Assembly: GCF_018474015.1 (NCBI RefSeq)
Contig: NZ_JAHCSG010000003.1
Span: 62,001-126,000, forward strand
Direction of reading: 5' to 3'
Length of the DNA stretch: 64,000 bases
DNA from: Williamsia sp. CHRR-6
GTDB lineage: Bacteria > Actinomycetota > Actinomycetes > Mycobacteriales > Mycobacteriaceae
Under the pieces are notes generated by a model. The model was not told the DNA's origin, did no database searches, and saw only the letters and a program-made list of their open reading frames with translations. Positions within the stretch are counted from its first letter, which is position 1; each line of letters starts with the position of its first letter. Shown here piece after piece: positions 33,217-55,399 of the stretch. The position numbers were made by a program, and so were the translations under genes.

Positions 33217-33705
33217 ATGACACAACATTCACGCCGTATCCGAACCCAACTACTGACCCTTCTCCTGTCCGGGTTGATCGCCCTGTCAGGGGGATTGTTT
33301 GCCGCTCCGGCGCACGCCGAGGTCGACGCATTCGCCAAGGGGTCGCACTTCTTCTCGATCACCAACAAGGGTGAGACCAACTACTACTACCAGGTCGTCT
33401 ATGCCGACAAGAACAATCCGGACATCGTCTACCACAACTGGGAGGGGACTGCGAGTCCGTACAAGGGCCGCATTCTCGGGGCATGGACGGGCGGAACGGA
33501 AAACGATCAGATCGATGTGTACTTGTCCAAGGACGTCATCACCCTGGGCGCGGTGCGGCAACGTGGAGTGACTCAGGCCATCGCGTACCACTACAAGATT
33601 CCCGGCAATTCCAACATCTGCCTCCTCGACCGGTTCCTGCGTGCGATGCGCGACTACTACAGCACTGCCGACGCTGGTGGCGACGGGGACTGCACGGCCT
33701 ACTGA
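33217..33705 (+). CDS. Small secreted protein, tandem paralogue 2
   Basis: A 162-residue paralogue of the protein at 32346-32834. The signal peptide ends near APAHA-EV; the mature sequence begins EVDAFAKGSHFF and shares YHNWEG, GAWTGG, NDQIDVYLSKD, GNSNIC, LDRFLR and the terminal CTAY. Most aligned positions are identical or similar and there are no length changes. The TATCCT box (33205-33210) is again exactly six bases from the ATG, as in paralogue 1. Function unknown; an extracellular, perhaps binding or toxin-like, role is speculation. Upstream 33050-33210 is AT-rich. Confidence 0.8.
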   Translation: MTQHSRRIRTQLLTLLLSGLIALSGGLFAAPAHAEVDAFAKGSHFFSITNKGETNYYYQVVYADKNNPDIVYHNWEGTASPYKGRILGAWTGGTENDQIDVYLSKDVITLGAVRQRGVTQAIAYHYKIPGNSNICLLDRFLRAMRDYYSTADAGGDGDCTAY

Positions 33706-34614: not shown

Positions 34615-34623
34615 GTGTGGTCG

Positions 34624-35739
34624 TCACTTTCTCTCGTCGCTGTCGGCACCGGGGGCGGATGCACCGAACCCGTACACGAACACCACCACGATCACCGCGA
34701 CCAGCCCGAAGATGAGAATGCTGACCGCCGAACCCAATCCGACGTCGAGGTTCTTGGTGATGTCGTATCCGTACTTCGAGACCGAGGCCGTGCCGTTCTG
34801 CCCGTTGGTCAACACGAGGATGTTGTCGAAGATGCGGAAGGCGTCGAGGGTGCGAAACAGCAGGGCCACCAGGATCGCCGACTTCATCAGCGGCAGGGTC
34901 ACCTTGATCAACCGGGTCCAGGCGCCGGCCCCGTCGACCTGCGCAGCTTTGAGGATGTCGTCGGGGACCAACGCGAGCCCAGCCAACAACAGCAACGCCA
35001 TGAACGGCGTCGTCTTCCACACCTCGGCGAGGATGATCACCCCGATGGCCGGCCAGTGCTCGGCCAAGGGTGCCGAGGAGTCGGGCAGCAGCCGGGCCAG
35101 ATAGCCGGTGCCCGGTGTCCACGCGTACTTCCAGGAGATGGCCGCGGCCACGGTCACGATGCCGTAGGGGATCAAGACCGTGGTCCGAACCAGGTTGCGG
35201 CCGATCAGGGTTCGGTGCATCACCAGGGCCAACGCCAGACCCAGCACGAACTCGATGATCACCGACACCACCGTGATGAGCGCGGTGGTGCTCACCGCCG
35301 ACCACCACACGTGGTCTTTGAGCACGGTGCGGTAGTTGCCGAAACCGATGAAGGTGTCATCACCAGGCGCACTGAGCTTGGAGTCGAAGAAGCTCAGGTA
35401 GGCCGCGTAGACGATCGGGTACGCGGTGACCGCCAGCATCACCAACGCGGCCGGGCCGATCAGCCAATACGCCAGGCGGCGTTGGGCTTTGCGGTCATCG
35501 CTCATGACCACCCGGCGTGGGGGGTCAGGCTCGGCACCCGCCCGGTCGACCACGGCGGTGGCGGCCGGGACGACGGGGATCCGACCGGTCTTCTGCATCG
35601 ACAGAGACGAATCAGCTGGATCACTCATTGGTGCATTCTCACCCATGCGGTTGCTTTCGCCTATACGAGGGCCGAGCCCGCCGACGGAATCGTCGGCGGG
35701 CTCGGGTTCGGGCGCCCGATGGCGTCCGGAGTAGTTCAC
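34624..35739 (-). CDS. ABC sugar transporter permease, SugA/MalF-like (second system)
   Basis: A 371-residue permease with a 90-residue hydrophilic, Pro/Asp-rich N-terminal extension before the first helix (LAYWLIGPAALVMLAVTAYP). The EAA loop is PDDILKAAQVDGAGAWTRLIKVTLP. The GTG start overlaps the stop of the binding-protein gene (GTGA); internal ATGs at residues 32 and 38 could give a shorter protein closer to the usual length. It pairs with the SugB-like permease downstream. Confidence 0.88.
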   Translation of the reverse strand: MNYSGRHRAPEPEPADDSVGGLGPRIGESNRMGENAPMSDPADSSLSMQKTGRIPVVPAATAVVDRAGAEPDPPRRVVMSDDRKAQRRLAYWLIGPAALVMLAVTAYPIVYAAYLSFFDSKLSAPGDDTFIGFGNYRTVLKDHVWWSAVSTTALITVVSVIIEFVLGLALALVMHRTLIGRNLVRTTVLIPYGIVTVAAAISWKYAWTPGTGYLARLLPDSSAPLAEHWPAIGVIILAEVWKTTPFMALLLLAGLALVPDDILKAAQVDGAGAWTRLIKVTLPLMKSAILVALLFRTLDAFRIFDNILVLTNGQNGTASVSKYGYDITKNLDVGLGSAVSILIFGLVAVIVVVFVYGFGASAPGADSDERK

Positions 35740-37262
35740 GATCCAGATTTCCCTGAATCCAGCGCCTTCTGAACGACTGCGGTCAGGTCGTCGACGCCCT
35801 TGGCGCCGACAGCCTTGCCCGGCGGGTTGAGCGCAGTGGACAGCGCGGTCGAGATCGCCTGGTAGACAGGCGAGGTCGGGCGCACGGCCGACGAGTCGGC
35901 CTCCAGCTGAGCCTTGATCAGATCACCCATGGGGTAGGTCTGCTTGAACTCGGGGTCGTCGTAGATCGACGCATCGGTCGGCGGGGTACCACCGGAGATG
36001 GCGTACACCTTCTGCGACGCCTTGTTGGTCAAGCACTCGACAGCCTTGAACGCCTTGTCCTTCTTGGTCGAGTACGCCGCGACACCGAAGTTGATACCAC
36101 CCACGGTGACCTTGGCCGGATCGCCGGCAACCACCGACGGGTACGGCGCGAAGTCGAACTTCTGGCGGACCAGCTCGTTGACCGGACCCAGCTCAGCGTC
36201 CTTGGGCGGGTTGTTCGGGTCGGCGAAGAGCTTGCCGTACTTGGCCTTCACGTCGGTGAGGAACTTGACGTCACCGGTGGCGGCATTGGAGCGCATGCTC
36301 GGGAACACGAACGGGTAGTTGAGCTGGAAGGTGGAGGTGCCGTTCTCGCCCGCGTCCTTGGCCGCACCCTCGTCGGCGAGGTTCAGGTCGGGAGCCGCAC
36401 CCGGCGCCTTGCCGATGGCCGCGATGATCGCCAGGGCCTTCTCGGTGGCTGCCTTGTGCTCGGGGGTGTCGCCCAGGGTCACCTTGGTCGGGTCGTTCGG
36501 GTCGATGACCGAACCGCCGGCGCTGGCGAGCAGGGTGTTGAACCACACGGTCAGACCCTCGTACTGCTTGGCCTGCACCATGATGTAGCTCGGGGCCTTA
36601 CCCGGACCGGTCCACGCCTTGCGGATGGTCTCATTGTCCTTGAGCAGCTGATCCCACGTCTTCGGCGGAGTTGCGTTGGCGCCCAGGTACTTCTTGAGGA
36701 CGTCCTTGCGGTACCAGAGCAGCTGGGTGTTGGTCCAGGCGGGAACGGCGTAGAGGCGCTTGGCCGAGTCCGACTTGGTCTTCCACTCGGCCGAGGCCAG
36801 CGGGCCCGGCAGCGACGACGCCTGCGCGGTCTTCGACAGCGCATCGGGCACCGGGGCGATCCATCCGGCATCGGCGAACTCCGCGGTCCACACCACGTCG
36901 AGGGAGACCACGTCGATGCCCTTGTCCTTGGTGGACAGACGACGCGCGAGCTGAGTGCGCTGGTCGTCGGCGTTCTTGGGGAGCTCCTTGATCGAGATGG
37001 TGTAGTCACCGTTGGAGCTGTCCGAGCACACCTTGCCTGCCGCGGCCAACGGCTCGGCGCCGTCGGCGGGAGCGTAGACGTTGATGGTCTTGGAACCGCC
37101 GCCTGAGCTGCCACATGCGGCCATGACGGGCACGGCGATGGCCGCCGCGGTGGCCAGGGCGATGGTGGCCTTCAGACGTCGGCCTGAGAGCAGACCGGAG
37201 CGGGTCGACTCCCCTGAGTCGATACGCCGCGACAGGTCATCGGCCTCGTAGCGATTCGCCAC
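35736..37262 (-). CDS. ABC sugar-binding lipoprotein (second system)
   Basis: A 508-residue solute-binding lipoprotein. A 30-residue basic N-terminal extension precedes the hydrophobic segment TIALATAAAIAVPVMAAC, whose lipobox Cys is residue 50. The mature domain has the same landmarks as the LpqY-like protein at 23021 (QLARRLSTKDKGIDVVSLDVVWTAEFADAGW, LLWYRKD, GGSVIDPND), so the systems are paralogues. An alpha-glucoside or trehalose-type ligand is likely but unproven. GTG start with a strong AAGGAGAT seven bases upstream. Confidence 0.9.
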   Translation of the reverse strand: MANRYEADDLSRRIDSGESTRSGLLSGRRLKATIALATAAAIAVPVMAACGSSGGGSKTINVYAPADGAEPLAAAGKVCSDSSNGDYTISIKELPKNADDQRTQLARRLSTKDKGIDVVSLDVVWTAEFADAGWIAPVPDALSKTAQASSLPGPLASAEWKTKSDSAKRLYAVPAWTNTQLLWYRKDVLKKYLGANATPPKTWDQLLKDNETIRKAWTGPGKAPSYIMVQAKQYEGLTVWFNTLLASAGGSVIDPNDPTKVTLGDTPEHKAATEKALAIIAAIGKAPGAAPDLNLADEGAAKDAGENGTSTFQLNYPFVFPSMRSNAATGDVKFLTDVKAKYGKLFADPNNPPKDAELGPVNELVRQKFDFAPYPSVVAGDPAKVTVGGINFGVAAYSTKKDKAFKAVECLTNKASQKVYAISGGTPPTDASIYDDPEFKQTYPMGDLIKAQLEADSSAVRPTSPVYQAISTALSTALNPPGKAVGAKGVDDLTAVVQKALDSGKSGS

Positions 37263-39273: not shown

Positions 39274-39513
39274 GTGCTGTGGATCCTGGGCGACGTGGTG
39301 GGACTGCCATTTCTGCTGACCCTGTTCGCCCGGTTCCGGGCCGAACAGCAGCACCTGGCTCAGACGATCGACGCTCAACTCGACGCCCACCTACCCGATC
39401 CCGACACGACGCCACCAGACAGCCCAGCCTCCGGTGATGTCGTCGACGACACTGCGCAAGCCGGCCTGTGGTGGGAGAACGACCCGCAGCTGCGGCAGCG
39501 GTTCCAGCACTGA
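39274..39513 (+). pseudogene. C-terminal remnant of a CtaG-like cytochrome c oxidase assembly protein
   Basis: A 79-residue open frame (VLWILGDVVGLPFLLTLFAR..., ending WWENDPQLRQRFQH) begins abruptly with a transmembrane-like segment. Its GDVVGLPFL and WWENDPQ elements resemble, as I remember them, the last helix and tail of actinobacterial CtaG/copper-resistance membrane proteins, which are several hundred residues long. The upstream part is absent and replaced by the inverted repeat. It could be a decayed fragment or a small unrelated gene; I favour a remnant with modest certainty. Confidence 0.45.
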
Positions 39514-39548
39514 GCGCCGACCGAGGCGGCGCTGTCACAATTGAGTAC

Positions 39549-41624
39549 GTGACCGAAGTATCTGCCTCCGCGCCCACCGACGATCCGTACCTGTGGTTGG
39601 AGGAGGTGACCGGCGACGACGCTCTGGCCTGGGTCCGGCAACACAACGCCGTCACCGTCGAGGCGTTGACCGGCACCACCCGGTTCGCCGAGATGCGCGA
39701 TGCCGCACACGAGATCCTCGACACCGACGACCGCATCCCGTACGTGGTGCGGCGCGGCGAGTACCTCTACAACTTCTGGCGCGACGCCACCAACACGCGC
39801 GGACTGTGGCGGCGCACCACGATGGAGTCCTACCGCACCGACACCCCCGAGTGGGACGTGATCATCGACCTCGACGCGCTGGCCGCGGCCGAAGGCGAGA
39901 ACTGGGTGTGGGGTGGAGCCGCGGTCCGCCGACCCGACCACGACCGCGCGCTGGTCTCGCTGTCGCGCGGTGGAGCCGACGCCGCAGTGGTCCGCGAGTT
40001 CGACCTGACCACCCGCACCTGGGTCGATCCGGACGGCCCGGATCACGGTTTCACCCTGCCGGAGAACAAGTCGCAGATCAGCTGGATCGACCGGGACACC
40101 GTCTACGTGGGCACCGACTTCGGTCTCCACAGCGACGGGCTCTCCTCACTGACCGACTCGGGCTACCCGCGCATCGCCAAACGCTGGACCCGCGGCACCC
40201 CACTGGAATCGGCAGAGGTGGTGTTGGCCGGGCACCCCGCCGACATCGCGGTCAGCGCCGTGCACGACGACACCGTCGGCTTCGCGCGCGACTTCGTGGT
40301 CCGCGCAACGGACTTCTTCAACGAGCTCACCTACGAGATCCGCCCTGAGGGACACGTCCTCATCGAGGTGCCCACCGACGCCAACACGATGGTCCACCGG
40401 CAGTGGCTGCTGGTGCTCACCCGATCGGACTGGGAACGCGGCACCGACACCTTCGCCAGCGGCACCCTGGTCGCGTTCGACTACGAGAGCTACCTGTCGG
40501 CACCGCACACTGCCACGGCCACCGTGCTGTTCACGCCGGACGCCCACACCAGCCTGCAGAGCGTGACGTTCACCGACACCCACCTGGTGCTCACCACTCT
40601 GCACGACGTGGCCACCGAGCTGCGGCTACTCACCGTGGGCACCTGGGAATCGGCGGCGCTGGCCGGAGTCCCCGAGTTCGCCACCGTGTCGGTGCTGGGA
40701 ACCGACCCAGATCACGGCGACGAGATCTTCCTGACCGCAAGCGGATTCACCACGCCCCCGTCACTGCTTCACGGCACCACCACCGACGGGGTGTCAGTTC
40801 TCAAACAGACACCGGCGTTCTTCGACGCCGACGGCATCTCGGCACACCAACACTTCGTCACCTCTGACGACGGCACATCAGTGCCGTACTTCGTCATCAA
40901 ACGCGACGACGTGACCGATGGACCCACCCTGCTCTACGGATACGGCGGCTTCGAGGTGTCCCAGACACCCGGCTACATGCCGGTGGCCGCGAAGAACTGG
41001 ATCGCCCGCGGGGGCATCTACGCCATCGCCAACATCCGGGGCGGCGGCGAGTACGGCCCCACCTGGCACACCCAGGCACTCAAGGCCGGCCGACACCTGG
41101 CATATGAGGACTTCGCCTCGGTGGCGCGCGATCTGGTGGCCCGCGGCCTCACCACGCCGGCTCAGCTGGGCGCGATGGGCGGATCGAACGGCGGGCTGTT
41201 GATGGGCGTGATGACCACTTCCTACCCAGAGCTCTTCGGCGCCATCGTGTGTCAGGTGCCGCTGCTGGACATGAAACGATTCCACCTGCTGTTGGCAGGG
41301 GCGTCCTGGGTGGCTGAATACGGCAACCCAGACGACCCGGCCGAATGGGAGTTCATCTCGACATACTCTCCCTACCAACGGCTCTCACGCGAGGCGACGT
41401 ATCCGGCCATTCTGGTGACCACGTCCACCCGCGACGATCGGGTGCATCCGGGGCATGCGCGCAAGTTCACCGCCCGTCTCGAGGAGTACGGCCACCCAGT
41501 GCGGTACTACGAGAACATCGAGGGCGGGCACGGCGGCGCCGCCGACAACAAGCAGGCCGCATTCAAGATGGCCTTGGCCGACGAATTCCTGTGGCAGACG
41601 ATCGGCGCGGCCAGTCAACGGTGA
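39549..41624 (+). CDS. S9 family prolyl oligopeptidase-like serine peptidase
   Basis: A 691-residue S9A-type peptidase. The N-terminal beta-propeller region starts DDPYLWLEEVTGDDALAWV, the family's DPYRWLE-like opening. The catalytic domain contains the nucleophile in GAMGGSNGGLLMG (Ser546), the acid in TSTRDDRVHPGH and the histidine in ENIEGGHGGAADNKQ. It probably cleaves short proline-containing peptides in the cytoplasm; no signal peptide is visible. I start at GTG 39549, seven bases after a CACAAT box. M. tuberculosis has a homologue (Rv0457c) in the same conserved region. Confidence 0.92.
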   Translation: MTEVSASAPTDDPYLWLEEVTGDDALAWVRQHNAVTVEALTGTTRFAEMRDAAHEILDTDDRIPYVVRRGEYLYNFWRDATNTRGLWRRTTMESYRTDTPEWDVIIDLDALAAAEGENWVWGGAAVRRPDHDRALVSLSRGGADAAVVREFDLTTRTWVDPDGPDHGFTLPENKSQISWIDRDTVYVGTDFGLHSDGLSSLTDSGYPRIAKRWTRGTPLESAEVVLAGHPADIAVSAVHDDTVGFARDFVVRATDFFNELTYEIRPEGHVLIEVPTDANTMVHRQWLLVLTRSDWERGTDTFASGTLVAFDYESYLSAPHTATATVLFTPDAHTSLQSVTFTDTHLVLTTLHDVATELRLLTVGTWESAALAGVPEFATVSVLGTDPDHGDEIFLTASGFTTPPSLLHGTTTDGVSVLKQTPAFFDADGISAHQHFVTSDDGTSVPYFVIKRDDVTDGPTLLYGYGGFEVSQTPGYMPVAAKNWIARGGIYAIANIRGGGEYGPTWHTQALKAGRHLAYEDFASVARDLVARGLTTPAQLGAMGGSNGGLLMGVMTTSYPELFGAIVCQVPLLDMKRFHLLLAGASWVAEYGNPDDPAEWEFISTYSPYQRLSREATYPAILVTTSTRDDRVHPGHARKFTARLEEYGHPVRYYENIEGGHGGAADNKQAAFKMALADEFLWQTIGAASQR

Positions 41625-41938
41625 CAGGTACTCGAACGGTGCAAACACCCCAAATGCGCCTATTCGAGCCCAGTGTCATCAGCAACGGTTGAGGATTCGC
41701 GTACAGCCGTTTTCCGGCTGGTATAGGTGACAGACCCCAGGTCCTTCCCAACCGCTCTTTTTGTGACGTGTGACAGAACTCAGTCATGCAGTTCCCGTCG
41801 CCAACGAAGCGGCTGATACCTTCATCACATCGGCACTTTGGTACGGCAAACCCGTTCGGTCATCCGCCGTACATTCGGCGCCGATTCCGCCGCCATTCGC
41901 AAATTCGGCTGACAGCACAAAACTGCCAAGGAGTACTT
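41625..41938. promoter_or_regulatory. Promoter region of the FAAL/thioester-reductase operon
   Basis: A 314-base gap without a gene, noticeably less GC-rich than its surroundings. It contains a CAGCCG-TTTTC-CGGCTG hairpin (41704-41720) followed at once by GTATAGG, a possible -10. AAGGAG at 41929-41934 is the ribosome binding site of the first operon gene. Confidence 0.45.
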
Positions 41939-43444
41939 ATGCCCGAAATCGGCCATTCTGACGCCGCGATGATTCTCCGTGTTCGCGACGTACTGACGGA
42001 AATCGTCGTCGGATATCTGCAGATTCCGGCGGAAAAGATCGATCCAGCAGCACCCTTCGCTGATTACGGCCTCGACTCGGTGTACGCACTCAGCGTCGCT
42101 GCCGACGTCGAAGATCGACTTGGCATTGCCCTCGACCCGACCTTGATGTGGGACTATCCGACACTGGACTCCCTGTCGGCAGCAATCGCGGGACTGATGG
42201 CCGAACCAGAAGCAGCATCGACCGAAGCCGAGGTGAGCCGAGGCATCACGGCGACCGAACTGAGTGCCGAAGCATTCCTGCCCGACGATATTCGCCGCCC
42301 GGACGGACAACCGATCTCAGCACCAGACAACGTTTTCCTGACCGGTGCGACCGGCTTCGCGGGGGCCTATCTGATCGCCGAACTCATCGCTCGAACCGAA
42401 TACACCGTGTACACGCTGGTGCGAGCCCGAGATGAAGGCGAAGCACGTGACCGTGTCCGACTGAATCTCACTACATACGGCCTGTGGAACGACGCGACAG
42501 CCGCCCGGGTTAAAGCAATTCCGGGAGATCTGGGGCGAGATCAGCTCGGCTTGACCGAGGTGATGTTCAAGCAATTGGCTGACACTATCGATGTCATCAT
42601 CCACAATGGTGCGGCCGTAAACTTTGCGTTGCCCTATCGGCGACTGCGGGCCGCCAATGTCGGGGGCACTGTGGAGATCCTGCGCATGGCCGCACAGGGC
42701 AAAGCCACCTCGGTGAACATGATCTCATCGATGGGCGTGATGCCAGAGCGACCTGGGACCCAGAGTGTTCCAGAGGCTGCCATGACCGACCCCACCGACG
42801 TGGTCGGCGGATACCGGCAGACCAAGTGGGTGGCCGAGCGGCTCGTGGTGGAAGCGGGGCGGCGTGGCGTCCCGACGAAGATCTTCCGGCCGGGCAACGT
42901 GACGGGCTCCCAGCAGACCGCGGTCGGCGCCCAGGACACGATCATCAACGCACTGATCAAAGGGTGCGTTCAGCTCGGGGCAGCGTTCGAGTTCGACGTC
43001 GTCCTACTTCTGGTCCCGGTCGACTTCCTGGCGTCCACCGTGGTCACCCACATCATCGACGGCAACCATGACAACGGCTTCGTGAACCTGCCGGGAGCGT
43101 CGCGGTTGCTGTGGAGTGAACTCATCGACTTGGTGGCCGGGGCCGGTTACCACGTGCCGATGCTGCCGTATTCGCAGTGGCATGAACTGTTCTCCGCACG
43201 CGGAGCGTCGACTGCACTCGCGCCCTACGCCCCGCTGCTGACCCCGGACGGCCCTGCCCCTGAGCTCGGGGTGAACGGCAACAGACCTGAGATCGAGACG
43301 ACGGCAACAGACACCGCCGTCACCGGACCACGGTGCGCTCCGATGGACGCGGCACTCTGGAATCGCTACCTCGAACATCTGGTCGAGGTGGGCTATCTGG
43401 AGTCGCCGAAAAGTGGTCTCACCCTGTCTGGGGTGAGCGTATGA
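41939..43444 (+). CDS. ACP-thioester reductase didomain protein
   Basis: A 501-residue protein with two domains. Residues 10-90 form an acyl carrier protein, with phosphopantetheine Ser47 in YGLDSVYAL. Residues 125-500 form an NAD(P)H-dependent thioester reductase of the NRPS/carboxylic-acid-reductase type: nucleotide loop FLTGATGFAGAYL, MISSMGV, and the YxxxK pair in GYRQTKWVAERL. Such domains release a carrier-bound acyl chain as an aldehyde or, by two reductions, an alcohol. It heads the operon, with AAGGAG five bases from the ATG. Its first third is visibly less GC-rich than its neighbours, suggesting acquisition. The stop overlaps the ligase start. Confidence 0.9.
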   Translation: MPEIGHSDAAMILRVRDVLTEIVVGYLQIPAEKIDPAAPFADYGLDSVYALSVAADVEDRLGIALDPTLMWDYPTLDSLSAAIAGLMAEPEAASTEAEVSRGITATELSAEAFLPDDIRRPDGQPISAPDNVFLTGATGFAGAYLIAELIARTEYTVYTLVRARDEGEARDRVRLNLTTYGLWNDATAARVKAIPGDLGRDQLGLTEVMFKQLADTIDVIIHNGAAVNFALPYRRLRAANVGGTVEILRMAAQGKATSVNMISSMGVMPERPGTQSVPEAAMTDPTDVVGGYRQTKWVAERLVVEAGRRGVPTKIFRPGNVTGSQQTAVGAQDTIINALIKGCVQLGAAFEFDVVLLLVPVDFLASTVVTHIIDGNHDNGFVNLPGASRLLWSELIDLVAGAGYHVPMLPYSQWHELFSARGASTALAPYAPLLTPDGPAPELGVNGNRPEIETTATDTAVTGPRCAPMDAALWNRYLEHLVEVGYLESPKSGLTLSGVSV

Positions 43445-45261
43445 CAAGCTCGGGAACCCTTCGTGCCCTGGCTGAGCGGCTGGCTCACCACCGCCAGGTC
43501 CGGGGCGACGAACCTGCCGTGATCGTCGCCGGCGCCACCGCGACCGACCCCACCGCGACGATGACCTATCGCGAGCTCGACCGCGCTGTCCACGAGATCG
43601 CAGACGCACTGGGGCAGCGCTATCCGGTGGGCTCCCGCCTCCTGCTGAGCTATCCGCACAGTGTGGAGTTCCCGGCCGTCTTCCTCGGCGCGTGCCTGGC
43701 CGGCATGGTGACCGTTCCGGTGCCTGTTCCCGGGCGTTCCCGCTACGCCTCACATCGGATGGCGGTCATCGCCCAAGACGCCGAGGCAGTTGCCATCATC
43801 ACCGCAGACATGGTGCGCGCCGAGGTGACCGAATGGGCTGTGCGCGAGAATCTTCAGTCGCTGGCCGTCGACGGACTCTCACCACTCGATCATCCGGTCA
43901 GGGATGCGCCGACCCGACCCCACCTCAGCGAGGTCGGTGGGCCCCGTTCGGATTTCCTCGACGAGCCATCGCGGACCGTGCTGTTGCAATACACCTCCGG
44001 GTCGACCAGCGCACCCAAGGGCGTGATGGTGAGCATCGCGAACCTGTTTGCCAACATCGATCTGCAAAACACTCACCTGCATCCCCAAGCGGGCACGGTG
44101 CGACGCGGCGGGTGGATTCCGCACCACCACGACATGGGTCTCATCGGGCTGGTGTTGCCCGGCATCCTCAATGGCGCTGGGTACGTGGCGCTGGAGGCCA
44201 CCGCGTTCCTCAAGCGGCCCATCAGGTGGCTCCAGATCATGTCCGAGTTCCGAGTCGGCCTGACCGCAGCACCGGATTTCGCGTATCGCCTCTGTGCCGA
44301 TCGGGTCCGCGATGACCAGCTCGACAGCATCGACCTGAGCTGTCTACTGGTTGCGGTCAACGGATCCGAACCGGTGCAGTCGAGCACGATGCGTGCGTTT
44401 GCTCAACGGTGCCAGACGACGGGATTCCTGGAGAGCTCCTTCGCACCCGCATACGGTCTGGCCGAGTCGACCTTGATCGTCTCGGGACGATCGGGGTCAG
44501 CTCCGATGAGTGTGGACATCGACGCCGACGCGCGAGAGGCCGGCCGCCTGGAGCCCGTGGCATCGGGCACCCGCGTGGCGGCCAGCGGCCCGCTGCTACG
44601 TCCGCAGGACCTCGCAATCGTCGACACACAGACCCACGCGGTGAGCCCCGACGGCTCGATCGGTGAGATCTGGCTGCGAGGGCCCAGCGTTGCCGCCGGC
44701 TACTGGGGTCATCCGCCCAGCCCAGCCGACTTCGCCGCGTACACCCCCGACGGCGAGGGCCCGTTCTTGCGCACCGGGGACCTCGGTGCGGTTCTCGACG
44801 GCCATCTCTACGTCGTCGGCCGACGCAAGGAGACCATCGTGCTGCGCGGACGCGTCTTGCACCCGCATGACATCGAACACGAGATGCGGCGACACCACCC
44901 GGAACTCGCCGGCGGGGTGGGCGCGGTGTTCCCGTTGCTGTCCGACGGCGCCGGGACCGCAGAAGTGGTGGTGGCAACCCACGAAATCCGTTCCGACCTC
45001 AGCGACAACGCTCTCGATGAGCTCACTCAAGCCATCCGGGCGACCGTGACCCGTGAGTTCGGGGTGCACGCCGCGGGCGTGTACCTGCTTGCTCCCGGGA
45101 CGGTACTGCGCACCACGTCGGGCAAGATCCGGCGAGCCGACATGCGTACCGAACTGTTGGCCGGCCGTCTGAGGCCGGTGGCAGCTCGGTTCGATTCGAC
45201 TGTTGCGCAACGGATCAGCGGGGATCTACGGCACGCGGCCACCGCCGGGGGTGTGCGATGA
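43441..45261 (+). CDS. Fatty-acyl-AMP ligase (FAAL)
   Basis: A 606-residue adenylate-forming enzyme of the FAAL/FadD32-like class. The P-loop is LLQYTSGSTSAPKGVMVS (near 181-198). WIPHHHDMGLIG and EATAFLKRPIRWLQIMSE match the FAAL pattern, and RRKETIVLRGRVLHPHDIE carries the C-terminal domain. FAALs activate free fatty acids as acyl-adenylates and load them onto an ACP rather than CoA; the ACP is encoded by the preceding gene. Four-base overlaps (ATGA) at both ends couple it to its neighbours. Confidence 0.9.
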   Translation: MTSSGTLRALAERLAHHRQVRGDEPAVIVAGATATDPTATMTYRELDRAVHEIADALGQRYPVGSRLLLSYPHSVEFPAVFLGACLAGMVTVPVPVPGRSRYASHRMAVIAQDAEAVAIITADMVRAEVTEWAVRENLQSLAVDGLSPLDHPVRDAPTRPHLSEVGGPRSDFLDEPSRTVLLQYTSGSTSAPKGVMVSIANLFANIDLQNTHLHPQAGTVRRGGWIPHHHDMGLIGLVLPGILNGAGYVALEATAFLKRPIRWLQIMSEFRVGLTAAPDFAYRLCADRVRDDQLDSIDLSCLLVAVNGSEPVQSSTMRAFAQRCQTTGFLESSFAPAYGLAESTLIVSGRSGSAPMSVDIDADAREAGRLEPVASGTRVAASGPLLRPQDLAIVDTQTHAVSPDGSIGEIWLRGPSVAAGYWGHPPSPADFAAYTPDGEGPFLRTGDLGAVLDGHLYVVGRRKETIVLRGRVLHPHDIEHEMRRHHPELAGGVGAVFPLLSDGAGTAEVVVATHEIRSDLSDNALDELTQAIRATVTREFGVHAAGVYLLAPGTVLRTTSGKIRRADMRTELLAGRLRPVAARFDSTVAQRISGDLRHAATAGGVR

Positions 45262-47051
45262 GCGCGCTGGCCGACCTCGTCGAGGTTTCAGCACCTGTAC
45301 TGCGGCCCGACCTCGGACAGCTCGATCGGGTTGCCGCCGTTGCCCACCTGCAGCAGGTCATCGCGTCCTCAGTGTCTGGCGGCGGCGCCCTGTCCGCGCC
45401 GTACACCGTCGCCAAAGATCGTCACTCGGCCTTTCCCGCAGAATCCATGCAACTGCTCGATCACGCAGGCCTGTATTCGTGGTTCGTGCCGCCGGCGGTG
45501 GGGGGACGGTTCGAGCTCCCCACCGTCATCGCTTTGCTGCGGGTGGTGTCTCGACACGACCTGACCACCGCCATCGCCTACGGCAAGACCTTCTTGGGTG
45601 CCGCGCCCACCTGGGTGGCCGGTAGTCCAGAGCAGCAGCAGGCGCTGGCGACGCGCATGGATCGACCGTCCCTGGTCACCTGGGCGCTGACCGAGCGGGG
45701 CCACGGCAGCGACCTGCTCTCCGGTGAGCTGTCGGCCGAGGCGACACCGGACGGGTACCGGCTGTCGGGCGAGAAGTGGCTGATCAACAACGCGACCCGC
45801 GCACCGCTGGTGTGTCTGCTCGCCCGGACTCGGCCCACCCCGGGCCCGCGGAGCTTTTCTCTGTTCATGGTGGACAAAGAGCAGTTGAGCCCGCAGTCGC
45901 ATCACTGCCTGCCCCCGGAGTTGCTGCACGGCATCCGCGGTGCCGACATCAGTGGTATCCGTTTCGACGGTGCCATCGTCGGTGCAGACACGCAGATCGG
46001 TTCGGAGGGCACCGGCGTGGAAACCGTGCTGCGGACTATGCAGTTGACTCGAACTGCCTGCACCTCACTGTCGTTGGGTGCTGCCGACGCTGCGATCGGA
46101 ATCGTGCGACAGTTCGTCAGTGGTCGGGTCGTCGGTGACCGGGCCCTGATCGATCGTCGCCTGGTGCGCCATGAACTGGGCTCGCTGCTCGCCGACCTGA
46201 TGATCGGAGAGGTCACCGCAGACGTGACCGCTCAGGGAGTCCACACCACCCCCGGCGAGGCCAGCATCCTGGCGGCGGTGGCCAAGGCACTCGTTCCCAC
46301 GCTCGGCGATCAGATCATTCACTCTGCGGCGTCGATGCTCGGAGCGCGGGGAATCCTGCTGGACGAGTTCGTCCACGGGCTCTTCGAGAAGATCGCACGC
46401 GACCACCGCATCGTGGCGATCTTCGACGGCAACACCGTGGTGAACCGGAATGTTCTCATCTCGCAGTTCCGCACAATCGCGCGCGCATTTCACGCGTTCG
46501 ATGGTTCGTCCATCCCGGATCACGCGAGCATCCACGTGCCGTGCCCGACATTGCAACCCGCTCACCTGTCGTTGATGTCGCGCACAGGGTGCTCGCTGCT
46601 CAACAGCCTGCCCGGCCTGCTGGATCGTCTCCTCGACTCCCCGGTGGCGCAGCACGCACCAGAGTTGCACGCAACCTGCGCCAGGTTGTCGCGGTCGGTC
46701 GACGGGCTCGTCGAGGCGATGTCAGCAACCCAGATGCCCGGGCGCAACGTGCCCGCCCAGAGCTTCGACCTGGCCGAACAGCTCGAGCTGCATGTCGCGG
46801 CCGCTGCCGCCATCACGTTTTTCAACGCCAACGGTGGTGGCGGAGCGCTCTGGTCAGACGCCCTCTGGCTGCGAGCGGTGTTGGCCCGCATCAACCTTCG
46901 ATTGCACCGAGCCGACCCCGAGGCCCAGGCGATCGGCGACGCGCTGATGCTTCACGTCGGTGCGGTGGTGGCCGACACCCCGCAGGCTGTCATGCCCGGC
47001 GTCACCACCGTCGACGGTGACGCCACCAACACGCTCGGAGTCAACCGATGA
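45258..47051 (+). CDS. Acyl-CoA/ACP dehydrogenase-like flavoprotein 1, with C-terminal extension
   Basis: A 597-residue protein; the ordinary acyl-CoA dehydrogenase (ACAD) fold takes about 400 residues and a 180-residue helical extension follows. WALTERGHGSDL and SGEKWLINNATRA are the FAD- and substrate-contact motifs. The loop carrying the catalytic base of medium-chain ACADs (YEGT) reads IFDGNTVVNRNVL here, so an Asp stands at or near the Glu position. It probably desaturates an ACP-bound acyl chain, by analogy with MbtN (FadE14) of mycobactin biosynthesis. ATGA overlaps at both ends place it next to a second, divergent ACAD with which it may pair. Confidence 0.85.
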   Translation: MSALADLVEVSAPVLRPDLGQLDRVAAVAHLQQVIASSVSGGGALSAPYTVAKDRHSAFPAESMQLLDHAGLYSWFVPPAVGGRFELPTVIALLRVVSRHDLTTAIAYGKTFLGAAPTWVAGSPEQQQALATRMDRPSLVTWALTERGHGSDLLSGELSAEATPDGYRLSGEKWLINNATRAPLVCLLARTRPTPGPRSFSLFMVDKEQLSPQSHHCLPPELLHGIRGADISGIRFDGAIVGADTQIGSEGTGVETVLRTMQLTRTACTSLSLGAADAAIGIVRQFVSGRVVGDRALIDRRLVRHELGSLLADLMIGEVTADVTAQGVHTTPGEASILAAVAKALVPTLGDQIIHSAASMLGARGILLDEFVHGLFEKIARDHRIVAIFDGNTVVNRNVLISQFRTIARAFHAFDGSSIPDHASIHVPCPTLQPAHLSLMSRTGCSLLNSLPGLLDRLLDSPVAQHAPELHATCARLSRSVDGLVEAMSATQMPGRNVPAQSFDLAEQLELHVAAAAAITFFNANGGGGALWSDALWLRAVLARINLRLHRADPEAQAIGDALMLHVGAVVADTPQAVMPGVTTVDGDATNTLGVNR

Positions 47052-48808
47052 CCGCATCGATCACCGGCGCCGCCACCACCGCAGCCCCTACCGCTCTGCA
47101 GACCTTGGAAGCGCTGCTGGGAAACCCGTGGGACGAGACCGGGCCGGTCAGCTTCGCGGCGATACTCGACGCCGACGAGTCTGCGCAGCCACTCGCGGCC
47201 GCTGAATCGCTGGTCGATCAATTCGGTCTGTCCCGCTTCTATGTTCCTGCATCGCTCGGCGGCGAGCTCCGGCGGATGGACGAGCTGATCGCCTTGCTAC
47301 GCGCGCTCTGTCGCCGCGATCCGGTGCTGGGCTTCGGGCACAGCCTCAGTTCGTTGATGGCAGCGGTCAACGTCTGGACCGTGGGCGAGGAGCACGTGTG
47401 CCGCCGCCTCGCCGAGGCGTTACTGGACGGAGAGCGAGTGGCCTGCGCGTATCACGAGCTCGCACACGGCAACAACCTCACCGGCATGGCGCTCGACGCG
47501 CGAATCGATGGCTCCGGCTGGCGCCTGACCGGGCGCAAAGAGGTGGTGACGAACATCGCGCGCTCAGACATGCTGGTCGCCTACGCCCGTACCGATTCGA
47601 CATCGTCGAGCCGCGGACACTCACTGTTCCTGCTGCGTCGGAGCACAGCTCGTAACGGCAGCATCCGCATGCTCGCCCGGTTCCCGGCGGCGGGTCTGCG
47701 TGGCGTCCAGCTCGGCGGCATCGAATTCTTCGACACGCCCGTGCCGGCCGAATCCCTGTGTGGCCGAACCGGTCAGGGATTGGAAGCGGCGGTCCGCTCC
47801 TTCCAGATCACTCGCATAGTCATACCGGCGATGGCCGTGGGCAGTCTTGACCTCGCCCTACGCGTGGCGGTTCGCTACGCCCGGGGCCGACGGCTCTACG
47901 GCAACCGCGTGGTCGATCTGGAACTCGTGCGCAGTCAGATCGCGGCCACGTTCGTTGATCTGCAGATCGCCGATGCGTTGGTGGCGGTGGCCGCACGCGT
48001 GCTACACCTTCGCCCCAGAGAAGCGAGCCTGATCGCGGCTGCAGTGAAACTGCATGTGCCACAGCTACTTCACGCAGGCACAACGCAATTGTCGGCAATT
48101 CTCGGCGCCCAGTTCTATCTCCGCGACGGCGAGAACGCGTTGATGCAGAAGCTGGTGCGCGACATCGGGCCAACCGCCTTCGTTCACGCATCGGCGTTGA
48201 CATGCCAGCAGACCATTCTTCCCCAGTTGCCACTCGTCGCGCGGCGATCGTGGACCTCCGACGGCGAGTCCGCCGCCGCCGAGCAGGCAGCCGACCTCTT
48301 CGATCTCAGCGGGCATCTCGATGATCTGGACCCCACGACCCTGGCAGTCGCACATGGTGGAACCGACATCATCCTGCCAGGTCTGGACGCGTGGCTGGGC
48401 GGGCCGGCCGCGACAGAGATCGACGGTGCGCGCAAATTGCGCAGCCAACTCCGGGCTTTCGTCGCCGAGGCCGCGGCTCTGCCGCCGTCGGCGCTGGCCG
48501 GCGACATGTCCGCCGCGCACGTCCGGCTCGTTGAGCGCTACGTGGTGCTGTTGGCTGCGGCGTGCGCTCTACAGACCTGGTCTGCCGCGGCGACCCATTC
48601 CGAGACCGCGACGCCTGACTGGTATCGGCAGTGCGTTGTCAACCGGACACTGCACAGACTCGGGCTCAGGGTCGGCTGCGATGCCGCGCTCGACGACGCG
48701 GTGATGGGTGAGATCGATCGGCGCTACGACGACGGCCTCACGTTCGATCTCGCCGCCCAACGGCTGCCATCTACGTCCACCCCACCTCCCACGGACCGCG
48801 ACCGGTGA
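47048..48808 (+). CDS. Acyl-CoA/ACP dehydrogenase-like flavoprotein 2, catalytic base apparently lost
   Basis: A 586-residue ACAD-like protein with a long C-terminal part. The contact motifs are altered: YHELAHGNNLTG replaces the usual TEPxAGSD, and TGRKEVVTNIARSD follows. YARGRRLYGNRVVDLELVRSQI is a good match to the family's FGxPIxxFQ segment. At the catalytic-base loop it reads FVHASALTCQQTIL, with His where paralogue 1 has Asp and typical enzymes have Glu. It may be a non-catalytic partner in a heteromer, as in the paired FadE proteins of mycobacterial steroid degradation (inference), or perform other chemistry. Confidence 0.83.
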   Translation: MTASITGAATTAAPTALQTLEALLGNPWDETGPVSFAAILDADESAQPLAAAESLVDQFGLSRFYVPASLGGELRRMDELIALLRALCRRDPVLGFGHSLSSLMAAVNVWTVGEEHVCRRLAEALLDGERVACAYHELAHGNNLTGMALDARIDGSGWRLTGRKEVVTNIARSDMLVAYARTDSTSSSRGHSLFLLRRSTARNGSIRMLARFPAAGLRGVQLGGIEFFDTPVPAESLCGRTGQGLEAAVRSFQITRIVIPAMAVGSLDLALRVAVRYARGRRLYGNRVVDLELVRSQIAATFVDLQIADALVAVAARVLHLRPREASLIAAAVKLHVPQLLHAGTTQLSAILGAQFYLRDGENALMQKLVRDIGPTAFVHASALTCQQTILPQLPLVARRSWTSDGESAAAEQAADLFDLSGHLDDLDPTTLAVAHGGTDIILPGLDAWLGGPAATEIDGARKLRSQLRAFVAEAAALPPSALAGDMSAAHVRLVERYVVLLAAACALQTWSAAATHSETATPDWYRQCVVNRTLHRLGLRVGCDAALDDAVMGEIDRRYDDGLTFDLAAQRLPSTSTPPPTDRDR

Positions 48809-49527
48809 ACGCGACCGCACTGATCACCGGCGCCTCACGGGGAACCGGCGCCCGCCTTGCCGCCCTCATGGCAGATGCCGATCACGACGTGGTGGTGCAC
48901 TACCGGAGCCGAGAAGTGCTGGCCCACAAAGTGGTCCGTGACATCGAAGGCCGGGGTCGGCGGGCCTGGCCCATAGCCGCGGACCTGGTTGAACCAGGCG
49001 CACCCGCGGCGCTGGCCGAGAAGGTGGCCGCCCTCACCCGCACGGTGAACGTGTTGATCCTCAACGCCAGCGGCGGTCTGGAACCAGGTCATGGGGCCGA
49101 CTACCCGACTCGGATGAATGTCACCGCCCAGGTGGCCACCCTGCGCGCGATCACTCCGCTGATGCCCGAGGGCTCCCGTGTCGTGTTCGTCACCAGCCAT
49201 CATGCACATTTCCACCCCGCCGTCGAGACGCTGCCCGAGTATCGGCCGATCGCAGCCAGCAAGCGCGCTGGGGAATCTGCCGTCCGCGATCAGATCCCCG
49301 AACTCGCCCGTCGCGGCATCTCGCTGGTGGTCGTCAGCGGCGATGTGGTCGCCCGGACCGCCACCGCGGTCATGCTCGAGCGAGCTCATCCAGACACCTT
49401 TGCGCGACGACGCGCGCGCGGTGACGACCCGCTCACCATCAACGAGTTCGCCGCCGGCGTCGCCGGCGCGGCCTTGGACCGAGACAAGCCGACCGGACAC
49501 ACGGTGTACGTCGGCGCGACCAACTGA
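48805..49527 (+). CDS. Short-chain dehydrogenase/reductase (atypical active site)
   Basis: A 240-residue SDR. The N-terminal ALITGASRGTGARLA is a clear NAD(P) loop and VLILNASGG corresponds to the NNAG motif. At the active site the classical YxxxK is replaced: the lysine in PIAASKRAGE has Ile four residues before it, and the nearest tyrosine (PEYRP) is seven before. The usual serine region reads FVTSHHAHF. A subgroup of actinobacterial SDRs shares this arrangement, as I remember. It could reduce the released aldehyde or a keto intermediate; catalysis is not certain. GTGA overlap with the preceding gene. Confidence 0.84.
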   Translation: MNATALITGASRGTGARLAALMADADHDVVVHYRSREVLAHKVVRDIEGRGRRAWPIAADLVEPGAPAALAEKVAALTRTVNVLILNASGGLEPGHGADYPTRMNVTAQVATLRAITPLMPEGSRVVFVTSHHAHFHPAVETLPEYRPIAASKRAGESAVRDQIPELARRGISLVVVSGDVVARTATAVMLERAHPDTFARRRARGDDPLTINEFAAGVAGAALDRDKPTGHTVYVGATN

Positions 49528-49571
49528 CGCACCGTTCTCTCTGCACACCTCGAGACCAAGGGACATGACCC

Positions 49572-50636
49572 ATGCAGTTCAGCCTCTTCTTCTTCGCCGC
49601 TGATGCGGCGGCGCCAGACACCGAGACGCCACGCACGGGTACGCGCGGTGACGGATACGCGCTGCTGCTCGACGCCGCACGCTTCGCCGACTCCCACGAC
49701 TTCACCGCCGTGTGGACCCCCGAGCGCCACTTCAACCGGTTCGGCGGCCTCTACCCGAACCCGTCGGTCACATCGGCGGCGGTGGCAGCGGTGACAGACC
49801 GAATCGCCGTTCGCGCCGGGAGCGTTGTTGCGCCCCTGCACGATCCGTTGCGGATAGCCGAAGAGTGGGCCGTGGTCGACAACCTCTCGGGTGGCCGGGC
49901 CGGAATCTCCTTCGGGTCGGGCTGGCACCCGACCGATTTCACGTTCGCCCCGCAGAACTTTGCTGATCGCGCCGCCATCACCGAGCAGACCATTCGACAG
50001 GTCCGCACACTGTGGTCAGGCAAGCCACTCACGCGGACCACGGCCACCGGCGAGTCCACCGAGATCGAGCTGTATCCCCGACCGATCTCCACCGACCTAC
50101 CGGTGTGGCTGACCAGTGCCGGCTCAGAGGCCACCTTCCGGGCCGCCGGGGAGATGGGGGCTGGAATCCTCACCCATATGGTCACCACCGGCCGGCCCAT
50201 CCTGGAGCGCAACATCGCCGCCTACCGCAACGCCTTTCGCCCCTGCGGCGACGCCATGCCCGAACCGCATGTCACTCTCATGCTGCACACCTTCGTCGGT
50301 GGCGATGGGTCGGCCGCGGCCGCAGCTCGAGCTGCGTTACGCACCTACGTCATGTCGTCGATGGACTTGTTCCGCAGCCGTGGGGGAAACACACCGGACT
50401 CACCTGCACACACACCGGAGCAGATCGACAAGCTGGTCGACATCAGTGTCCGGAGATTCCTCACCTCAGCAGGTCTGTTCGGTGAACCCGAGGATGGCGT
50501 CGAGCTGGTGCGCTCGTTGTCTCAATCTGGGGTCTGCGAGCTGGCATGCCTGGTGGATTTCGGGATGCCCAGCCAGATGGTGCTCGACGGGCTCGCCGAT
50601 CTGGATCGCCTACGCCAGATGTGCGCCGCGACCTGA
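49572..50636 (+). CDS. MupA/Atu3640-type luciferase-like FMN monooxygenase
   Basis: A 354-residue LLM-class flavin-dependent monooxygenase. QFSLFFFAADAAA, AVWTPERHFNRFGGLYPNPSV, AGSVVAPLHDPLRIAEEWAV and GGRAGISFGSGWHPTDF are hallmarks of the MupA-like subfamily, which occurs alone or embedded in PKS/NRPS assembly lines and oxidises carrier-bound or released intermediates with FMNH2 and O2. It lies 44 bases after the SDR with its own AAGGGA, still in the same direction and probably the same operon. The exact reaction (hydroxylation or Baeyer-Villiger) cannot be read from the sequence. A flavin reductase must come from elsewhere. Confidence 0.88.
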   Translation: MQFSLFFFAADAAAPDTETPRTGTRGDGYALLLDAARFADSHDFTAVWTPERHFNRFGGLYPNPSVTSAAVAAVTDRIAVRAGSVVAPLHDPLRIAEEWAVVDNLSGGRAGISFGSGWHPTDFTFAPQNFADRAAITEQTIRQVRTLWSGKPLTRTTATGESTEIELYPRPISTDLPVWLTSAGSEATFRAAGEMGAGILTHMVTTGRPILERNIAAYRNAFRPCGDAMPEPHVTLMLHTFVGGDGSAAAAARAALRTYVMSSMDLFRSRGGNTPDSPAHTPEQIDKLVDISVRRFLTSAGLFGEPEDGVELVRSLSQSGVCELACLVDFGMPSQMVLDGLADLDRLRQMCAAT

Positions 50637-50673
50637 CGGCGACACTTCCGGTGATCTTGTGCCGATGCGATGA

Positions 50674-51501
50674 TCAACGACGAAAGCCGATGCGCAACGC
50701 CGACACCAGCACGGTGGCCACCGTCAGCGCCGACCCGACGACCACCACGACGAGGGCAGTGTTCTGCAGATCGTCGGAGGTTTTCTCGATGATGATCTGT
50801 GCCACCTGCCGGGGGGAACTGACAGCTCCGGAGAACTCGGCCTCCGCGCGGTCACGCAGCACCCACGCCACCACATAGCTGCACACGCCTGCGATGACGG
50901 CGCCTGCCCCCAATGCCGCCAGTGACAGCGCGCGTCGGCGGGCCAAGGCCAGCGCCGCCAGCGCCGCGATCACCGCCAGCGCCGTCGAACCATAGGCCAG
51001 CCGCGTGATCTGTTGTGCCGCCTGGTGATAGCGGCCCGCCTCCAACCCACTACGCCGGGTCTCGCTGAGCGGGATGCGAATGGGACCGGTGACGCTCACC
51101 CCGGTGATCCCGAACTGTCGCACCACCCGGTTCACCATCGCCGTCAGATCGAGTTCCAGGATGTCGTTGCGCGCGGCGGCATCTCGCGGTGGTTCGAACA
51201 GAAAGTCGTGCTGTTGACCCAGCACGTCGGCGAAGTCGGCGGGGAATTGGTCGCTGCGCGTATAGGCCAAGGTGGCCGGGCGGATCACCGCCTCAGGGAC
51301 CACATCGGTCTGCGCGGCGATCTGCCGAGCGATCTCGTCGCCGATCACGGTGCGTACCTGCTGGTCGCGGGCCATGGGCTCGACGAATGAGGTGAACCCG
51401 TCGCGGTCGATCACCCGGTACTGCATCCACAACGACGGCACCGCCACCCACATCGCGATGATCGCCACCACGGTGGCCAGCAACGAAGCGAAGGTGCGCA
51501 C
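50674..51501 (-). CDS. Membrane protein of unknown function
   Basis: A 275-residue protein that I do not recognise by name. One N-terminal helix (about 5-25) is followed by an extracytoplasmic domain of some 140 residues, then three hydrophobic segments (about 178-195, 198-220 and 247-268) and a basic end, LRIGFRR. Similar one-plus-three-helix proteins occur in Mycobacteriales. GTG start. It converges on the monooxygenase gene and lies 51 bases downstream of the PPK2 gene, with no obvious functional link. Confidence 0.72.
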   Translation of the reverse strand: MRTFASLLATVVAIIAMWVAVPSLWMQYRVIDRDGFTSFVEPMARDQQVRTVIGDEIARQIAAQTDVVPEAVIRPATLAYTRSDQFPADFADVLGQQHDFLFEPPRDAAARNDILELDLTAMVNRVVRQFGITGVSVTGPIRIPLSETRRSGLEAGRYHQAAQQITRLAYGSTALAVIAALAALALARRRALSLAALGAGAVIAGVCSYVVAWVLRDRAEAEFSGAVSSPRQVAQIIIEKTSDDLQNTALVVVVVGSALTVATVLVSALRIGFRR

Positions 51502-54637: not shown

Positions 54638-55399
54638 ATGACCCTGGATCAACCACTGGCGCAACGACCAGACGCCGGCTACGTGTTCGAGACCTCGTGG
54701 CCGTTGGCCAGCGGCGACATCGACCAGTTCGAGCGGCTCAGCGTCGACGGCGTGGCCCGCTACCTCCAGGAGGCCGGCGCCCAACACCTCGTCCACGCAG
54801 AGGCCTTCGACGCCCACCCGTTCTGGATCGTCCGGCGCACCGTCATGGACGTGCATCAACCGATCGCCTGGCCCGACAAGATCCATCTGGCCCGATGGTG
54901 TTCCGGCATCTCGCCGCGCTGGTGCAACATGCGGGTGCGGGTCACCAGCGAGGGCGGCGGGCTGATCGAGACCGAAGGCTTTTGGATCAACATGAACATG
55001 GAGACCAAGGGGCCCTCGCGGATGGAAGATCACTTCTTCGATCGGCTGGCCACCACCACCGACGAACACCGGTTGCGGTGGCGGCCGTGGCTGACCGAGC
55101 CGGTGAATGCGGTCCACGAGCAGCCGTTCGCATTGCGGCGCAGCGACACCGACCGTCTCGACCACGTGAACAACTCGATCTACCTCCAAGCGATGCGCGA
55201 GGTGTTCCCTCAGGTCAGCGACCTGGTCGACGGGCCGTTTCGGCTGGTGATCGAATACAACAAGCCGATCACCTTCGGCGAAGACGTCCGCATCGCCACC
55301 GCGCCCGAGCAGAGTGCTGACGGCCGCGATGGCCTGCGGTTCTGGATGACCGTCGACGGAGACCCCCGCACCCACGCGATCCTCACCACCATCCCCTGA
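54638..55399 (+). CDS. Acyl-ACP thioesterase family protein
   Basis: A 253-residue double hot-dog protein of the acyl-ACP thioesterase family. The first hot-dog contains SVDGVARYLQEAGAQHLV and WIVRRTVMDVHQPIAW; the second begins QPFALRRSDTDRLDHVNNSIYLQAM, a typical catalytic-helix pattern. It would release fatty acids from ACP or CoA. GGGGAG lies upstream of the ATG. The gene is followed by a six-unit 21-bp repeat array. A link to the FAAL operon 4 kb away is possible but not shown. Confidence 0.86.
   Translation: MTLDQPLAQRPDAGYVFETSWPLASGDIDQFERLSVDGVARYLQEAGAQHLVHAEAFDAHPFWIVRRTVMDVHQPIAWPDKIHLARWCSGISPRWCNMRVRVTSEGGGLIETEGFWINMNMETKGPSRMEDHFFDRLATTTDEHRLRWRPWLTEPVNAVHEQPFALRRSDTDRLDHVNNSIYLQAMREVFPQVSDLVDGPFRLVIEYNKPITFGEDVRIATAPEQSADGRDGLRFWMTVDGDPRTHAILTTIP

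Follow-up and report, generated by a model that had tools for sequence, protein, structure and literature searches.

A six-gene operon in Williamsia sp. CHRR-6 as a candidate synthase-free branch of corallorazine-type lipid chemistry

Background

Lipoinitiation cassettes are known in which a gene for a fatty acyl-AMP ligase (FAAL) is followed by two genes for flavoproteins resembling acyl-CoA dehydrogenases (ACADs) (PMC9113097, PMC8552735). A cassette of this kind is defined by adjacency and a common direction of the three genes. In taromycin, malacidin, ramoplanin and rotihibin the acyl thioester of the acyl carrier protein (ACP) feeds the starter condensation (C) domain of a nonribosomal peptide synthetase (NRPS) or a polyketide synthase (PKS). 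Here we describe an operon in a stretch of 64,000 nucleotides from Williamsia sp. CHRR-6 (contig NZ_JAHCSG010000003.1, positions 62,001 to 126,000; hereafter the window), in which the same block, in the same order, is combined with an ACP-thioester reductase (ACP-TR), a short-chain dehydrogenase/reductase (SDR) and a luciferase-like monooxygenase (LLM), and in which release of the chain would instead be reductive.

The corallorazine crz1-crz8 family (PMC11342130) carries reductase, ligase, ACAD and ACAD in the order of the window operon. By gene assignment, this reductase/ligase/two-ACAD block, which there serves an NRPS, accounts for the (2E,4Z)-dienoyl chain; a split adenylation (A) domain is reported from the crz clusters, and in part of the family an LLM ("MOx") lies inside the A2 domain. 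Hydroxylation at C-alpha was assigned to the MOx domains, citing work on myxothiazol, and they are reported from Serratia and Pseudomonas (PMC11342130). In taromycin and malacidin, too, chains of delta2,4 type go with two-ACAD cassettes, and a 2021 review states that mechanistic studies of the paired ACADs had yet to be reported (PMC9113097). In vitro, the ACAD HliR introduces a gamma,delta double bond into 2-enoyl thioesters (PMC4768178).

Two further systems come close. The tambjamine enzymes TamA, TamT and TamH (PMC5939613), which we compare by description only, are proposed to load a FAAL-ACP, desaturate the chain with a FAD-dependent enzyme and release it with a thioester reductase; they differ from the window operon in that TamA is a FAAL-ACP fusion, there is a single dehydrogenase, and a reductase-transaminase fusion leads to an amine. 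MupA, PuwE and the myxothiazol MOx share the LLM family TIGR04020, and hydroxylation of a carrier-bound chain is shown for MupA and proposed for PuwE and MOx. In vitro, MupA alpha-hydroxylates an ACP-bound beta-keto chain (PMC10952193).

Results

The gene set, the intact motifs, the carrier type, the kinship of the parts and the insertion are features of the sequence itself. The operon (41939-50636, ~8.7 kb) consists of six intact, co-directional genes on the + strand with open reading frames (ORFs) free of internal stops, and domain searches agree with the name given to each of the six proteins:

41939-43444, + strand: ACP-TR, 501 aa, with PP-binding and NAD_binding_4/TIGR01746 domains
43441-45261, + strand: FAAL, 606 aa, with AMP-binding domain
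45258-47051, + strand: ACAD1, long ACAD-like flavoprotein, predicted alpha,beta-dehydrogenase, 597 aa, with Acyl-CoA_dh M and 1 domains
47048-48808, + strand: ACAD2, long ACAD-like flavoprotein, predicted gamma,delta-dehydrogenase, 586 aa, with Acyl-CoA_dh M and 1 domains
48805-49527, + strand: SDR of the PRK07806 subfamily, 240 aa, GTG start
49572-50636, + strand: FMN-dependent LLM of the MupA/Atu3671 family, 354 aa, TIGR04020

The intergenic distances from gene 1 to gene 6 are -4, -4, -4, -4 and +44 bp, the LLM being the only non-overlapping member. These coordinates bear out the initial annotation, which had described six genes in one direction, the first five joined by overlaps of four bases. 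An AAGGAG lies upstream of the ACP-TR start at 41939, while a longer ORF opens at 41786.

No synthase gene was matched when the 50 window genes that a simple script had called were compared by blastp with a small reference set (NRPS, C, ketosynthase (KS), P450, FMN reductase and others), in agreement with the earlier statement that ketosynthase and condensation genes are lacking; P450 and FMN reductase reference proteins gave no match either. The sole NRPS matches in the window are the FAAL and the LLM, domain types found within the reference NRPS.

The conserved neighbourhood that the initial annotation had proposed to look for was recovered. The two best matches of ACAD1, in the actinomycete Kutzneria buriramensis and the betaproteobacterium Rhizobacter sp. 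Root1221, stand among the identical six genes in identical order, so that three distant genomes share the set, and their proteins are 43-54% identical to the window counterparts (43-45% for the FAALs). As the contig scan from the ACAD1 alignment used exact peptide patterns and only the best 80 of 255 kin were kept, other six-gene members may exist. Neither the window nor the Rhizobacter locus yielded a separate ACP gene, and no synthase was found in the Rhizobacter locus and two further stretches of that genome. The free-standing ACP and adjoining NRPS or PKS of the lipoinitiation cassettes are thus not found in the window or Rhizobacter, but they are present in Kutzneria.

Within the family of the window genome, ACAD1 kin (E<=1e-50) occur in 6 of 401 genomes, the window genome included, and neither SDR nor LLM was found in the stretches examined of the other five. 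In five other genomes of this family (L025, L026, L027, L028, L029), FAAL-ACAD-ACAD-ACP cassettes stand next to KS or NRPS genes; those of L025 and L026 come with an MMPL transporter. LLM-profile searches in two orders gave matches in 25 of 348 and 3 of 349 genomes. In the 14 LLM loci examined, mostly with ~1.5 kb on each side and with the 21 weaker of 33 matches in the first order left out, an SDR stands beside the LLM only once, and this is the Rhizobacter locus again.

The type of carrier is the strongest sign that one and the same protein may receive the fatty acid and release it. The ACP-TR has an ACP with a GLDS site and a reductase domain with GATGFAG and YRQTK motifs, and its N-terminus in the window, Kutzneria and Rhizobacter is a FAAL-cassette-type ACP (YGLDSVY). 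The reductases of the crz-like loci in Burkholderia glumae and Streptomyces begin instead with an apparent A-domain end, followed by an NRPS-type peptidyl carrier protein (PCP; LGGNS or LGGDS). When 89 carrier pieces, a set that includes duplicates, were compared, the eight closest to the window ACP, at 56-59% identity, were those of the Kutzneria ACP-TR and of cassettes. The lowest ranks, at 22-32%, are held by the Kutzneria ACP downstream of the operon and by two PCPs of crz type, from B. glumae and Streptomyces (the two PCPs 24-32%). The FAAL could therefore load the very carrier from which the reductase domain would release the chain, and the load-desaturate-release logic on one carrier suggested at the outset stands as the likely one, with the reductase-fused carrier being of the FAAL-cassette type. 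A role of the reductase as releaser of an NRPS product was rejected, as its carrier is not PCP-like when set against these two crz-like PCPs. With the three ACP-TR carriers, the Kutzneria downstream ACP shares only 22-27% identity.

Five crz-like loci were found, on a Burkholderia glumae plasmid (L023), in Streptomyces (L024), in Corallococcus (L057) and in two Pseudomonas (L113, L114). All carry NRPS, reductase, FAAL, ACAD, ACAD and ACP, and four of the five carry P450 and FMN reductase; L057 ends before that point. The window operon matches the ligase and two ACADs crz3-crz4-crz5 (clade I), but not the crz2-type T domain before the reductase (clade I), in the place of which it has the FAAL-type ACP. 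It further differs in that no NRPS, P450, FMN reductase or separate ACP was found, an SDR is added, and the LLM is free-standing. The LLM domain within the B. glumae NRPS (L023:3118-11373, on a plasmid typed as conjugative) is 44% identical to the window LLM, and in the Pseudomonas genome of L114 an LLM domain lies inside a frame of 2,751 aa. The window operon thus looks like crz parts without the NRPS, where the direction of change is our reading.

In a tree of the reductase domain (28 rows: the window, two other six-gene loci, six crz-like loci and 19 other reductases from the window's family), the three six-gene reductases and the six crz-like ones (L023, L024, L057, L113, L114, L124) form one group with support of 100/99, which strengthens the link to crz. 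A mixture-model tree of FAAL, ACAD1 and ACAD2 (unrooted, 22 of 75 rows chosen around the window) groups the window, Kutzneria and Rhizobacter with 100/100. Since the attachment point of this group lies between the five crz-like loci (96/92) and the remaining 14, the mixture-model tree alone does not tie it to crz.

The ligase is likely a FAAL that loads an ACP rather than forming acyl-CoA. All 15 PDB sequences matched under 1e-30 are FAAL-type. The alignment to 7r7f has short gaps only.

Neither ACAD has the catalytic Glu of canonical acyl-CoA dehydrogenases. At the position which we take to hold the catalytic Glu, ACAD1 has Asp390 and ACAD2 His380; Glu is found at neither the C-terminal nor the isovaleryl-type position, and ACAD2 has Thr at the latter. 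The equivalence of these positions follows from a conserved RD register together with numbering we assume from other ACADs, the listed PDB profile alignments stopping at or before the site. Asp is present at ACAD1 position 390 in 90 of 90 loci, 10 of which were found by other routes; as FDG is part of one of the two scan patterns, the 80 scan loci do not test this independently, and the side point is weakened. His is present at ACAD2 position 380 in the 80 loci in which the best match is a separate gene covering the site. Nine of the best ACAD2 matches in the remaining ten fell on ACAD1 and one missed the site; among the nine, seven have a second, diverged ACAD that does not span the site and two have the second gene off the contig piece. 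The diverged ACADs of these seven Streptomyces/Kitasatospora loci (L088, L093, L094, L103, L109, L123, L131) match ACAD2 over ~110 residues, and a third ACAD type may exist. The predicted model of ACAD2 keeps the ACAD fold, with fold matches including TcsD (6u1v), like HliR an ACAD of gamma,delta-type desaturation. The reaction of HliR, with which ACAD2 likewise has the fold in common, is the one proposed for ACAD2; TcsD is short (389 aa in the PDB entry), whereas ACAD2 is, at 586 aa, a form resembling very-long-chain ACADs with His at the base position. MbtN (FadE14), which had been offered as a model, is not the closest and was rejected: ACAD2 scores 35.7 bits, far below the 700-bit cut-off of NF037942, and ACAD1 is not among the listed matches.

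The SDR has a YxxxxxxK spacing in place of YxxxK, which we take to be the motif of enoyl reductases (FabI/FabL); it is found in 5/5 aligned SDRs, four of which tested as PRK07806. Against the FabL equivalog model the SDR reaches 76.2 bits, below the cut-off of 328. The LLM scores 402.7 bits with TIGR04020 (cut-off 244.45) and 48.8 bits with the luciferase alpha model, and its closest solved kin is PuwE (6ket), with distant matches to alkanal monooxygenases.

The operon lies within a segment that is bounded by an S9 peptidase gene (39468-41624, + strand) and a gene of 275 aa (50674-51501, - strand):

41606-50717, approximate, no strand: inserted segment, at the ends of which the congener alignment breaks off and restarts

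The two bounding genes adjoin directly in four of the five congeners compared at the DNA level; the fifth has about 2 kb of other DNA where the operon sits in the window genome. The S9 peptidase and PPK2 genes are present in 7/7 congeners at 0.9-4.2 kb from each other, as against 9.9 kb in the window genome, and neither FAAL kin (E<=1e-100) nor ACAD1 kin (E<=1e-50) were found in the seven congeners searched. By this comparison the operon is a clean insert of ~9 kb, horizontally acquired, and since the site is empty in congeners it probably came as one unit. The composition fits the acquisition that had been suspected from a low G+C content at the 5' end: the intergenic region there has 55% GC, the G+C content at third codon positions (GC3) is 0.72 in gene 1, and the mean GC3 of the operon is 0.78 versus 0.85 in 36 other window genes (p 1.5e-4). 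A repeat search found no pair at the ends of the insert, and a promoter/terminator scan nothing above chance. The ~2-kb stretch of the fifth congener (L185:2120-4133) carries an open frame of 509 aa, and DNA may land at this site repeatedly. Three congener loci (L182, L183, L184) hold 1.7-3.4 kb between the homologue of the 275-aa gene and PPK2 that are not present in the window.

A Pfam scan covered part of the window genes. Scanned neighbours upstream are the S9 peptidase, a pyridine-nucleotide-disulphide oxidoreductase and a sugar-type ABC transporter, and those downstream are PPK2, a DUF4166 protein and an acyl-ACP thioesterase. The transporter (33787-37262) lies outside the operon on the opposite strand, and the operon itself has none, as had been stated before. 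The thioesterase (54638-55399), on the operon's strand 4 kb downstream and beyond PPK2, could feed the FAAL with free fatty acid, or it may be a core gene. An ORF of 261 aa at 32920-33705 without Pfam match has a GC3 of 0.73 and lies inside a stretch of 60% GC (32-34 kb).

Discussion

From the relationships described above we infer which substrates are used, in what order the reactions proceed, how long the chain is, what the LLM and the SDR do, and what is finally made and for what use. The FAAL would adenylate a free fatty acid and load it on the reductase-fused ACP. ACAD1, by analogy with Tar5/MlcH, may then oxidise the acyl-ACP to 2-enoyl-ACP, and ACAD2, with His for the catalytic acid, may carry out a vinylogous gamma,delta-oxidation to 2,4-dienoyl-ACP. 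The reductase domain with NAD(P)H would release the chain as a 2,4-dienal or dienol. The FMN-dependent LLM would oxygenate the carrier-bound chain, most likely at its alpha carbon, and the SDR, which the motif hints is enoyl-reductase-like, would reduce C=C or C=O. We thus give a probability of about 0.55 to a dienyl aldehyde- or alcohol-type product made without a synthase, that is, to an NRPS-free branch of corallorazine-type lipid chemistry. That it serves as a small secreted signal or an antibiotic is guesswork. A bolder form of this reading, in which a lipopeptide machinery was reduced to its two ends and an exchange of one carrier domain wired a lipid-initiation cassette to a terminal reductase, giving a synthase-free, horizontally moving line towards 2,4-dienal/dienol oxylipins with the His-for-Glu long ACADs as gamma,delta-desaturases, is put forward tentatively and as somewhat less probable than its opposite.

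Several observations weigh against the synthase-free dienyl product. The weakest part of the model is the activation of the alpha carbon by or for the LLM, and the roles of both LLM and SDR are uncertain: MupA needed the beta-keto group and did not accept a beta-hydroxy chain (PMC10952193), and unlike in the MupA, PuwE and MOx systems no beta-keto-forming synthase was found beside the window operon, nor any ketosynthase beside the Rhizobacter one. As no KS was found here, the alpha carbon would need other activation, for example in a 3-enoyl or dienolate form. The operon has no flavin reductase. SDRs of PRK07806 type also occur outside such clusters, so the spacing only hints at reduction of C=C. 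The segment of the ACAD2 model around His380 is below pLDDT 50, and the chain of rotihibin, whose cluster has two ACADs as well, is drawn as cis-2-decenoyl, with no more than minor -2 Da forms (PMC8552735), so that ACAD2 may be idle or act otherwise. As to the trees, the three six-gene reductases are not on one side of any branch and come together in 37% of bootstrap trees only, which weakens a side point, and this run gave long-branch warnings. The window branch in the mixture-model tree measures 1.27 against a median of 0.37 for the others and is fast evolving. FastTree (74 of 90 loci plus the window, 16 loci with missing or overlapping matches being dropped) put the window with L080 (0.13) and with L122 and L087 (0.986), not with Kutzneria and Rhizobacter, which it placed beside the crz-like loci (0.98); we prefer the mixture-model tree because the window row is long. 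Finally, the Kutzneria operon is followed, 28 bp after the LLM and on the same strand, by an ACP, a KS and a module of KS, AT, DH, ER-type, KR and ACP, a fully reducing PKS stretch (L055:15392-21671 and L145:2-4048).

It is this PKS that makes a starter-unit role the main rival, in which the unsaturated acyl unit would be elongated as a side chain or starter by a PKS or NRPS elsewhere and the ACP-TR would release the finished chain only. The flanks of the best 80 of 255 ACAD1 loci hold NRPS or C-type genes in 41, KS only in 26, neither in 11 and the six-gene set in 2, where the labels are approximate (best blastp match to a small reference set, some resting on one adenylation-type ORF, with several contigs short). 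The initial annotation would have been refuted if homologous clusters always had a PKS or NRPS beside them that uses these as accessory genes; this is half borne out, since such a neighbour occurs in Kutzneria and, by this tally, at 67 of the 80 loci, but not in the window or Rhizobacter. The window genome has, on other contigs, very large open frames of 11,944 and 6,187 aa with adenylation-type matches, and a KS would supply the beta-keto chains on which MupA acts (PMC10952193). Against this stand the missing synthase matches in the window and at the Rhizobacter stretches, and the possibility of loading the chain on the reductase's own carrier domain, a point in favour of direct release. We regard a starter-unit role as unlikely, though it deserves more weight than the remaining alternatives.

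A little less probable still is that ACAD2 acts as an isomerase, turning the 2-enoyl into a cis-2 or 3-enoyl chain for a mono-unsaturated product. The lack of an acid at the Glu position and the Thr at the isovaleryl-type position would fit, LipB of friulimicin makes a delta-cis3 bond, and a 3-enoyl thioester would give the LLM an acidic alpha carbon; the cis-2-decenoyl chain of rotihibin despite two ACADs points the same way (PMC8552735). However, of the clusters compared, those with two ACADs lead to dienoyl chains (taromycin, malacidin) and those with one to mono-enes (friulimicin, laspartomycin), corallorazine with its two ACADs has a diene (PMC11342130), and ACAD2 is predicted to keep the ACAD fold. 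A loop as in bioluminescence, where activation and reduction by luxCDE are coupled to the flavin monooxygenase luciferase, would likewise combine these functions in one operon, with the reductase making a fatty aldehyde and the LLM oxidising it in free form. The distant matches to alkanal monooxygenases recall this, but the far higher score of the LLM with the MupA model than with luciferase alpha, and PuwE as its closest solved kin, make such a loop very improbable.

The claim that no described pathway has this exact gene set was upheld, but the FAAL-ACAD-ACAD cassette is known, and reductase, FAAL, ACAD and ACAD together make up the corallorazine layout less its NRPS (PMC9113097, PMC8552735, PMC11342130). 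None of the three crz clades described in PMC11342130 is a synthase-free form, judged without the supplementary tables. A literature search, with supplements and most subscription papers outside its scope, found no paper with three of FAAL, ACAD, thioester reductase and luciferase-like monooxygenase, and the words "reductase" and "aldehyde" have 0 occurrences in the available part of a FAAL review (PMC11837247). What is new is the synthase-free wiring of a known gene block, with no NRPS and a FAAL-cassette ACP on the reductase.

The operon is small enough for full reconstitution and would offer a clean system for each ACAD and for a MupA-type oxygenase. Searches keyed to NRPS or PKS genes could miss synthase-free clusters of this kind. 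The wiring also suggests how assembly lines may shed their synthase, namely by a single swap of carriers that would turn a peptide-releasing reductase into a fatty-acyl-releasing one.

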